NCBI RefSeq assembly: GCF_000003815.2
Contig: NC_049985.1
Span: 20,200,921 to 20,264,920, forward strand
Origin: Branchiostoma floridae
Taxonomy: Eukaryota; Chordata; Leptocardii; Amphioxiformes; Branchiostomatidae
Direction: 5' to 3'
Length of the DNA stretch: 64,000 bases
Shown: positions 48,501 to 51,500 of the stretch, in pieces
How the letters are laid out: each line of letters begins with the position of its first letter
Numbering within the stretch: the stretch's first letter is position 1
Notes under the pieces: model-generated
Seen by the model: only the letters and a program-made list of their open reading frames with translations
Database searches by the model: none
Told to the model about the DNA's origin: nothing
Program-made: the position numbers and the translations under genes

Positions 48501-51500
48501 CAGGTTCGTCATGACGCGCCAAACAAAATATGGTTGGGCCGCGCAACTGGGCAACCAGTCATTTCAAACCCTGAGCTAACTAATATGACCCTTTACTACT
48601 TCTCGTACTACCTCTTATGGCATTGCTTTCATGGCATCACTGCAAACTTTGCTTCTTATTCTGCCTAAAGGCATCCAACCAGGAAGATCATACCCAGTCA
48701 CCTCCAAGTTTTATTATTTTAGATTTTGTCATGATGGTAGCAGTATAAGAAAAAAATTGTAAAAATCTAAGAAAAAATGTAAAACTTTTTGTGAAAAGAA
48801 TCTTGATAAAGCTAATGTAGCCAAATTGCAAAGAGGCTTTGTCAAGAAAAGTTATATGGAGCATGTCCTTGGTAGTGTATTGCAATGTTTGTACATGTTT
48901 CGTGTCATGCTTGTAATCTGTGCTATACATGAGTTGGCACTGTTTGCAACCAGTGCTGTACATGAGTTGGTGCTGTTTGTAACCTGTGCTGTACATAAGT
49001 TGGCGCTGTGTTTGCAACCAGTGCTGTACATGAGTTGGTGCTGTGTTTGTAAGCTGTCCTGTGCATGAGTTGGCGCTGTGTTTGTAAGCTGTCTTGTACA
49101 TGAGTTGGCACTGTGTTTATACATGTAAGCTGTGCTGTACATGAGTTGGCACTGTGTTTGCAACCTGTGCTGTACATGAGTTGGTGCTGTTTGTAACCTG
49201 TGCTGTACATAAGTTGGCGCTGTGTTTGCAACCAGTACTGTACATGAGGTGGTGCTGTGTTTGTAACCTGTGCTGTAATTGAGTTGGCGCTGTTTGTAAC
49301 TTGTGCTGTAGATGAGTTGTCGCTGTGTTTGTAAGCTATGCTGTAGATGAGTTGGCGCTGTGTTTGTAAGCTGTGCTGTAGATGAGTTGGCGCTGTGTTT
49401 GTAAGCTGTGCTGTAGATGAGTTGGCGCTGTGTTTGTAAGCTGTGCTGTAGATGAGTTGGCGCTGTGTTTGTAAGCTGTGCTGTAGATGAGTTGGCGCTG
49501 TGTTTGTAAGCTGTGCTGTAGATGAGTTGGCGCTGTGTTTGTAAGCTGTGCTGTAGATGAGTTGGCGCTGTGTTTGTAAGTTGTGCTGTACATGAATTGA
49601 TGCTGTTTGTAACCTGTGCTGTATGCTGTTTGTAACCTGTGCTATGCATGAGTTGGTGCTGTTTGTAAGCTTTGCTGTACATGAGTTGGCGCTGTGTTTG
49701 TAAGCTGTGCTGTACATGAGTTGGTGCTGTTTGTAAGCTGTGCTGTACATGAGTTGGTGCTGTGTTTGTAAGCTGTGCTGTACATGAGTTGGTGCTGTGT
49801 TTGTAAGCTGTGCTGTACATGAGTTGGTGCTGTGTTTGTAAGCTGTGCTGTAGATGAGTTGGCGTTGTGTTTGTAAGTTGTGCTGTACATGAGTTGGTGC
49901 TGTTTGTAAGCTGTGCTATACATGAGTTGCCGCTGTATTTGTAAGCTGTGCTGTACATGAGTTGGTGCTGTTTGTAACCTGTGCTGTACATAAGTTGGCG
50001 CTGTGTTTGTAAGCTGTGCTATACATGAGTTGGTGCTGTTTGTAAGCTTTGCTGTACATGAGTTGGCGCTGTGTTTGTAAGCTGTGCTGTACATGAGTTG
50101 GTGCTGTTTGTAAGCTGTGCTGTACATGAGTTGGTGCTGTGTTTGTAAGCTGTGCTGTACATGAGTTGGCGCTGTGTTTGTAAGCTGTGCTGTACATGAG
50201 TTGGTGCTGTTTGTAACCTGTGCTATACATGAGTTGGTGCTGTTTGTAAGCTGTGCAGCCTGTGTTCATGTCTGCACTCGTTCCCACACACCCAGGTGCT
50301 GCGCCCTTTCCTCCTGCGCCGAATCAAATCGGACGTGGAGAAAGAGCTTCTCCCTAAGAAGGAGACAAAGATCTACGTTGGCCTGACCAAATTGCAGCGA
50401 GAATGGTAAAGGATGGAGTGAACCACTAACAGTTCTGTGTGTGTACCTTGAGCTTTTTACAGGGACTCTCCTCTTGACTTAGTCCTTGGGCAACCAGAAA
50501 TTATCATACATTCCATTTTCTGGCAGTTGTAAAACTGATTGGATGAGGTTGGAGTAGAGAGTCCCTGACCAGTTCATGTGCACACACGTTATACATGTGC
50601 ACAGTTCCTCGGGTCTTGTCTCTTTGGTCGCACCTGCTGCTGATTACCAAAAAGGTGACCAAATTTCAAAATGGACAGATAAAGGAGCATGCTTTTTTGC
50701 CTGTAACTAAGTCTACCATCACGTTGGCTGGGGATTTGATGACCTGTTTACGCCAACCGTCCCTTAAATTTGCATATTCCACTGCTGCCAGAGATGTCCC
50801 TTTTGAGCTCACAGACCCGTGGGGTGTGAGTAGACTCGTGGGGTGAGCAGAGCCTCAAAGTGGCAAGAGGGGAATTGTGCAATTGTATTGTGGGCCCGTC
50901 CTGTCCCTGGGCCCTGGACTGGTTTGCTGTGGACGCACACATGCGCACACACACACATACATGGTGGAGCGGATTTCCTAACATTATTTCTGCACCGCCC
51001 CCCACGCTCCCACCACCACAGGTTTTGCGTCCATTCCTCCTCCGTCGTTTGAAGTCAGATGTGGAGGCCAGCCTCAAGCCAAAAAAGGAGACAAAAATCT
51101 ACGTGGGGCTCGCCAGAATGCAAAGAGAATGGTAACTGTGACCTGTGTACCTCCGCACCAGGATATAACACTGGATGTTGTAGCCTGGCATTCAAGTATT
51201 AATCATGCACCAATTACTAACTAACAACAATTACCAGTAACTAACTACATTAAGTAAGCCCTTCACACATTGAGATAAATTAGTAGATGACGATTTCTGT
51301 CAAAAGATAGTCATTGTGCCTGGTAACACTAAAATAGAATTTGATGTCTGTTGATGTGGCATCATACTATAGTTTGCGAGAGTGCTTGGAATGAAGAATT
51401 TTACTTTTTAGTGACATTTTTGTTGTACATGCACATTTATTTGTATTATTGTATTTGTCAATTAAACTATTGATTTTTGCAGGGCATGCCCAAAGTGCAG

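Follow-up and report, generated by a model that had tools for sequence, protein, structure and literature searches.

A putative mutually exclusive exon pair in the SNF2 motor of the single ISWI gene of the amphioxus Branchiostoma floridae

Introduction

Mutually exclusive exons of myosins, which are known from many genes and transcripts, offer a choice between versions of a single segment in an ATP-driven motor and tune its function rather than replacing it, although the motor is a different one from that considered here. The main text of the survey of mutually exclusive exons in human (Hatje et al. 2017, PMC5740500), in which the myosin motor-domain exons are named and the terms SMARCA, ISWI and helicase are absent, gives 377 clusters (60%) with a length not divisible by three. 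In amphioxus, the Fgfr exons IIIb and IIIc are reported to be used in a mutually exclusive way in tissues, as found by RT-PCR, and to be regulated by Esrp (PMC5703972). Closer to the present gene, alternative splicing of human SNF2L, an ISWI protein, gives a variant with exon 13, an additional in-frame exon in the SNF2 domain which is described as non-conserved and abolishes remodelling (PMC2266716), while human SMARCA4, another motor of the SNF2 family belonging to a different remodeller family, has an annotated cluster of three mutually exclusive exons (PMC6071210).

The present window, i.e. the whole stretch of 64,000 nucleotides of the Branchiostoma floridae genome that was analysed, contains an ISWI gene with two adjacent, similar exons (A and B) in its motor region. 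On sequence grounds, A and B most likely arose as an old tandem duplicate and serve a single ISWI gene as mutually exclusive exons.

Results

The host gene

The gene was modelled over the following region.

38620..63656, + strand: ISWI gene as modelled, 22 exons counting A and B, with N-terminal exons upstream and the last exon past the window

All 22 modelled exons have AG before and GT after, and form a single open frame with either A or B; the last exon of the gene, with the basic tail, lies downstream of the window in locus L010 (near 1435-1500). The database protein P0001 has the N-terminus found in the window, and over the modelled part its sequence is that encoded by the window exons. 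P0001 contains the Pfam domains SNF2, Helicase_C, HAND and SLIDE (PF00176, PF00271, PF09110 and PF09111), all well above cut-off, together with a Myb/SANT domain scoring 24.5 against a cut-off of 24.4, and thus has the SNF2 + Helicase_C motor followed by HAND-SANT-SLIDE that typifies ISWI (SMARCA1/SMARCA5 type). The best PDB matches of the gene are SMARCA-type chains (6ne3 and 8v4y), which we take to be SNF2h, and fungal ISWI chains.

Several other open frames occur in the window. An open frame with a PDGF/VEGF domain (PF00341, E 8.2e-11; 25424-25912, + strand) lies upstream of the ISWI gene and probably belongs, as an exon, to a gene for a PDGF/VEGF-like growth factor. Reverse-transcriptase matches (PF00078) are present in the frames 14234-14872 (+) and 56209-57024 (-). 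The latter frame, situated within an intron of ISWI, matches a PHD finger too, barely over the cut-off; the frames neighbouring these two look, by eye, like more pieces of such elements. A 233-codon open frame (9105-9803, - strand) looks coding by eye and has no Pfam match at E 0.001.

Layout and reading frame of the exon pair

The pair and its neighbours are arranged as follows.

42184..42252, + strand: upstream exon ending in VARLHT, phase 0, followed by an 8.0-kb intron to exon A
50296..50405, + strand: exon A, 110 nt, phase 0 in and 2 out, 36 residues plus a split Trp codon by translation, one DNA match in the genome
50406..51021, + strand: intron between exons A and B, 616 nt, GT-AG ends ordinary by eye
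51022..51131, + strand: exon B, 110 nt, phase 0 in and 2 out, 36 residues plus a split Trp codon by translation, one DNA match in the genome, the version found in P0001
52458..52684, + strand: downstream exon, with the second part of the split Trp codon, in which the frame continues

Exons A and B, each with AG before and GT after, are identical at 77 of 110 nucleotides (70%) and at 29 of 36 residues, and hence are adjacent homologous exons of equal length and phase with their own splice sites, which is the structure expected of a mutually exclusive pair. The seven residue differences fall at exon positions 10, 16, 17, 19, 31, 32 and 33, including Lys-Glu in A for Ala-Ser in B (positions 16-17), Leu for Lys in the hinge (19), and Thr-Lys-Leu for Ala-Arg-Met at the start of a lobe 2 helix (31-33). 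The likeness of A and B is more than chance: when 21 of the gene's exon peptides (the pair being represented by A) were scanned ungapped in six frames against positions 35,001-64,000, the peptide of exon A alone gave a good second match (0.81, at 51022), whereas the remaining 20 had best second matches of 0.18-0.30. An ungapped search of the window for further copies of the segment, with a threshold of 12 identities out of 36, gave no third one.

When translated, A alone or B alone leaves the frame open through the next exons. A joined to B meets a stop after nine further residues read from exon B, the omission of both exons gives a stop after two residues (RLHT followed by VH and the stop), and among the five arrangements tried (A, B, AB, BA and none) early stops occur in AB, BA and none. 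With 110 nt per exon and an early stop from both or neither, joint inclusion and joint skipping are non-functional by translation, and a full-length protein needs exactly one of the two exons per mRNA. Re-reading of the sequence confirmed the coordinates, 110-nt lengths, phases, AG/GT sites and seven residue differences given in the original prediction; its claim that both or neither would break the frame is borne out by these early stops, and the four junctions it had proposed (42252-50296, 42252-51022, 50405-52458 and 51131-52458) all give an open frame.

A single locus

In a six-frame search of the whole 513-Mb genome, for which the query carried exon B, ISWI-grade matches (89-95%) were obtained at the present locus only. 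This search sees both exons (exon B at 95% and exon A at 79%), and the other matches listed are different SNF2-type loci at no more than 75%. A DNA search of the genome gave one match for exon A and one for exon B; such searches are too blunt to detect the partner exon at 70% identity, whereas the protein search detects both. The introns flanking A and B are unrelated, as their alignment is no better than that of shuffles and the likeness is confined to the exons, and the window has no N run from position 28,629 onwards.

A pair of this kind might be produced by an assembly that joined two alleles or two paralogous genes, and such cases seem to be present in this assembly. In a different SNF2 gene, presumably SMARCAD1-like, at locus L021 (G000:C8, about 10.981-10.982 Mb), one helicase exon occurs twice in 907-bp stretches which are 97.7% identical over both exon and intron and lie beside N runs, and this looks like an assembly or allelic duplication. 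The ISWI pair differs from it, being 70% identical in the exon only, with unrelated introns and no N past 28,628. An origin of the pair from alleles, a haplotig, a paralogue fusion or a misassembly was therefore rejected as very unlikely, given the unrelated introns, the absence of near N runs and the sole ISWI-grade locus found. The same joining of alleles or paralogues had been named beforehand as what would speak against the prediction, and it does not fit the single locus seen here.

A repeat of a different kind occurs in a second remodeller of the same genome. On the minus strand of locus L009 (G000:C14:1916500-1921500), at about 1920.0-1920.6 kb, part of the exon encoding motif I in a further SNF2 gene (judged CHD-like by eye) recurs in tandem with a period of 149 bp. 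Beyond the original there are three nearly identical copies (84-85 of 90 nt; all have GTAAG after them and two have AG before) and a decayed one (60 of 90). This is a recent exon-derived array.

Constraint and divergence of the two copies

The dN between A and B is 0.172-0.178, while dS is saturated by NG86 (no value) and 1.62 by YN00. The differences at codon positions 1, 2 and 3 number 8, 4 and 21, respectively (p = 0.0008). When free drift of one copy was simulated at 0.3 substitutions per site (substitutions only, without indels), seven or fewer changes and no stop were retained in 1-2 of 4,000 runs.

The homologues used for comparison combine 120 listed of 504 hits with 120 listed of 362 hits from the exon-A region search, and are enriched for segments like A or B. 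Among all 193 long homologues (P0001 included), 25 of the 37 positions are at least 95% one residue, from which A departs at two (S31T and M33L) and B at one (S31A). At a looser cut (27 positions at 90%, counted over the 97 distinct segments of 192 proteins, P0001 being left out), B departs at three positions and A at two, above most relatives, as 87 of the 97 segments have no or one departure, nine have two and one has four. Both copies thus show coding constraint and, judging from these comparisons, have been kept as coding exons over a long time; that each is somewhat more changed than most relatives could reflect functional divergence or slightly relaxed constraint.

At the variable positions, counted on 174 of the 193 proteins (the other 19 did not fit a strict pattern), A equals B at six (12, 13, 24, 26, 27 and 28). 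In the comparison of the 97 distinct segments, A differs from B at four positions where the family hardly varies (16, 31, 32 and 33). Among 2,127 homologue pairs with 6-8 differences, 34 (1.6%) have four or more at family-conserved positions, as A and B do, which suggests that the two exons differ unusually often at sites kept by other ISWIs; this percentage is a pointer to functional divergence, not a proof of it, given that the pairs lack independence and that likeness to A or B decided which homologues were compared. Ala at position 16, as in B, is found in two of the 193 homologues (P0001 itself and P0023), and Glu at position 17, as in A, in none of the 193. Leu at position 33, as in A, is present in two of the 193 long homologues, yet in nine of 36 short proteins.

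Exon usage in database proteins

The one database protein of the ISWI gene, P0001, carries exon B. No exon-A protein is found among the 120 listed of the 362 hits of the exon-A region search, nor in 37 short proteins, 36 of which entered the residue counts (one of 37 residues was too short). The protein collection is made up of representatives at 90% identity, P0001 representing 8 sequences. Full-length isoforms with A and with B would be less than 1% apart, so that the absence of an exon-A protein is weak evidence.

These database results would suit a relic, in which exon A is an old duplicate no longer spliced and B the sole working copy (or the reverse). However, with synonymous sites between A and B saturated, the sequence of a copy that had long escaped constraint would by now be lost, and the splice sites and frame of both are intact. 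A relic is accordingly considered improbable, although a recent loss of use of one exon is possible.

Splice sites and candidate RNA pairing

The donors of A and B both lack G at +5, which is present in 16 of the 20 other donors of the gene, and their acceptors are poor in T (3 of 17 and 1 of 17, respectively, as against a median of 7 in the 20 others, the next two exons having 2 and 3). These weak splice sites may suit regulation, the numbers being small.

Such sites, together with the early stops met by both the AB and the "none" mRNAs and the occurrence of exon B only in the database protein, would also be expected if exon A were a regulated poison device, in which inclusion of A with B or double skipping leads to a premature stop and less ISWI protein and the A-only protein is unimportant. 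A pure poison exon, however, needs no protein conservation, yet A keeps the correct frame and phases and departs from the family at just 2 of 25 fixed positions (S to T and M to L). This explanation is regarded as unlikely.

Besides the frame break, PMC5740500 names in its main text two more safeguards of exclusive splicing, steric hindrance and intron type, neither of which seems to apply to the ISWI pair. Taking as the limit a distance from donor to branch point below about 50 nt, or mixed intron types, neither steric hindrance nor U2/U12 incompatibility was found for the intron between A and B, which has 616 nt and ordinary GT-AG ends (type judged by eye). As for exclusion by competing RNA pairings (a docking site and its selectors), two further features are of relevance.

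48911..50256, + strand: minisatellite of about 39 units of about 35 bp each, 39 nt short of exon A (listed by Tandem Repeats Finder in two rows, 20.5 and 18.5 copies)
50568..50582, + strand: candidate pairing partner of the minisatellite unit, 163 nt past exon A, a weak lead

The best inter-intron helices are no better than those of 20 shuffles for two of the three intron pairs. For the third pair, the minisatellite with 50568-50582, the score is 32 against a best shuffle of 31, a weak result uncorrected for the search. Twelve places in the minisatellite pair with 50568-50582 at 15 of 15 positions (G-U allowed), and a pairing energy as good as or better than that between the minisatellite unit and the intron is reached by 9 of 200 shuffles and by 4 of 149 overlapping control stretches. 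This pairing would loop out exon A and so favour B, and is a weak lead only to how the choice of exon might be steered. Reading of the reverse strand across the minisatellite meets no stop for up to 388 codons (48855-50018), apparently just an effect of the repetition.

As no structure or steric limit enforcing exclusion was found in these searches, A and B may be thought of as ordinary cassette exons, or as exons each tied to a different transcript end, whose use is not strictly exclusive. Their homologous peptides, however, come from the folded motor core, and 110 nt is not a multiple of three; free use of this kind is very improbable.

Place of the segment in the motor

The segment encoded by the pair aligns without gaps to residues 381-440 of the 1,052-residue chain 8v4y_W, which we take to be human SNF2h, and to residues 684-733 of yeast Sth1. 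It contains the later part of the SuppH helix (protrusion 1), the hinge between the RecA lobes, and the start of lobe 2 up to its first helix. From the ungapped Sth1 match, the exon starts at the equivalent of Sth1 V689, one residue past K688. The equivalent of K688 is a Thr just before the exon border in the ISWI of the window and a Met in 8v4y_W, while the equivalent of R691 lies inside the exon and is kept in both A and B.

Of the substitutions reported for the SuppH helix of Sth1, R684A, H687A and R691A break the link between ATP use and DNA movement, R685A and K688A are in the group that shows raised coupling and translocation, and K688T turns the Sth1 residue into the threonine of wild-type ISWI (PMC7853424). 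The same source states that every remodeller family has the later part of SuppH in common, and that AutoN binds directly to this part in ISWI (PMC7853424). The earlier suggestion that the segment lies near the NegC/AutoN brakes is thus supported for AutoN by the published statement on SuppH, while its link to NegC is presumptive.

Going by the published naming and a low-confidence model, positions 10, 16 and 17 of the seven differences are predicted to lie near the end of SuppH (which in ISWI is itself placed by inference), position 19 in the hinge, and positions 31, 32 and 33 where the first helix of lobe 2 begins. The structure prediction of P0001, made with 40 sequences, has a mean pLDDT of 59.7, with 40-64 by block in the exon segment, and the placement of the changed residues is approximate owing to these low values. 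As a rough guide, the order in the model is helix 397-407, helix 414-422, strand 427-433 and helix 437-456, the exon being residues 406-442.

Discussion

The original prediction of a mutually exclusive pair stands strongly at the level of sequence, with its frame logic, two constrained copies, intact sites and one locus; exclusive use in RNA, decay of the wrong products and an effect on the motor are what we infer from these. As a mutually exclusive pair, each working mRNA would carry exactly one of A or B, while an mRNA with both or neither would meet a premature stop and be removed by nonsense-mediated decay. The choice of exon would swap 36 residues, from inside the SuppH helix, across the inter-lobe hinge, to the first helix of lobe 2. 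As nearly all residues shared by ISWI relatives are kept in A and B, both forms are predicted to be active, and the seven differences would most likely tune the coupling of ATP use to DNA movement, or the hold of AutoN on the motor.

More tentatively, this one chordate ISWI gene might give two motors by exon choice, one normal and one with altered coupling or AutoN braking, in different cells. If this somewhat doubtful reading is true, splicing does part of what the separate SNF2H and SNF2L genes do for vertebrates. The question of coupling has so far been addressed by artificial mutants, as in the alanine scan of Sth1 (PMC7853424). If both isoforms exist, they are a natural matched pair of ISWI motors whose seven differences fall in the helix and the hinge through which regulation reaches DNA movement, and could be used directly to ask how coupling is set by SuppH, AutoN and the hinge.

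The original prediction had known of no such exon pair in ISWI, and literature searches, in whose coverage subscription papers are mostly not included, likewise gave no report of one. If both isoforms exist, the pair is, as far as these searches show, the first exon swap described inside the ISWI motor.

The pair resembles the myosin exons in offering alternative versions of one segment of an ATP motor, though of a different motor. It shares with the human set (PMC5740500, main text) homologous neighbouring exons in a folded domain, whose joint inclusion breaks the frame; the human set is backed by splice-junction reads, whereas the ISWI pair is predicted from sequence. Like the amphioxus Fgfr exons IIIb and IIIc as described in PMC5703972, it is a tandem exon duplication, but the Fgfr pair encodes a ligand domain of a receptor and is shared with vertebrates, while the ISWI pair encodes part of an ATP motor and is seen in one genome only. 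The exon 13 variant of SNF2L (PMC2266716) also involves alternative splicing inside the SNF2 domain of an ISWI protein, but by an added exon rather than a homologous swap, and the SMARCA4 cluster (PMC6071210) belongs to another family of remodellers. Mutually exclusive exon pairs are a known kind of device, for which ISWI would be, as far as the searches show, a new host gene.
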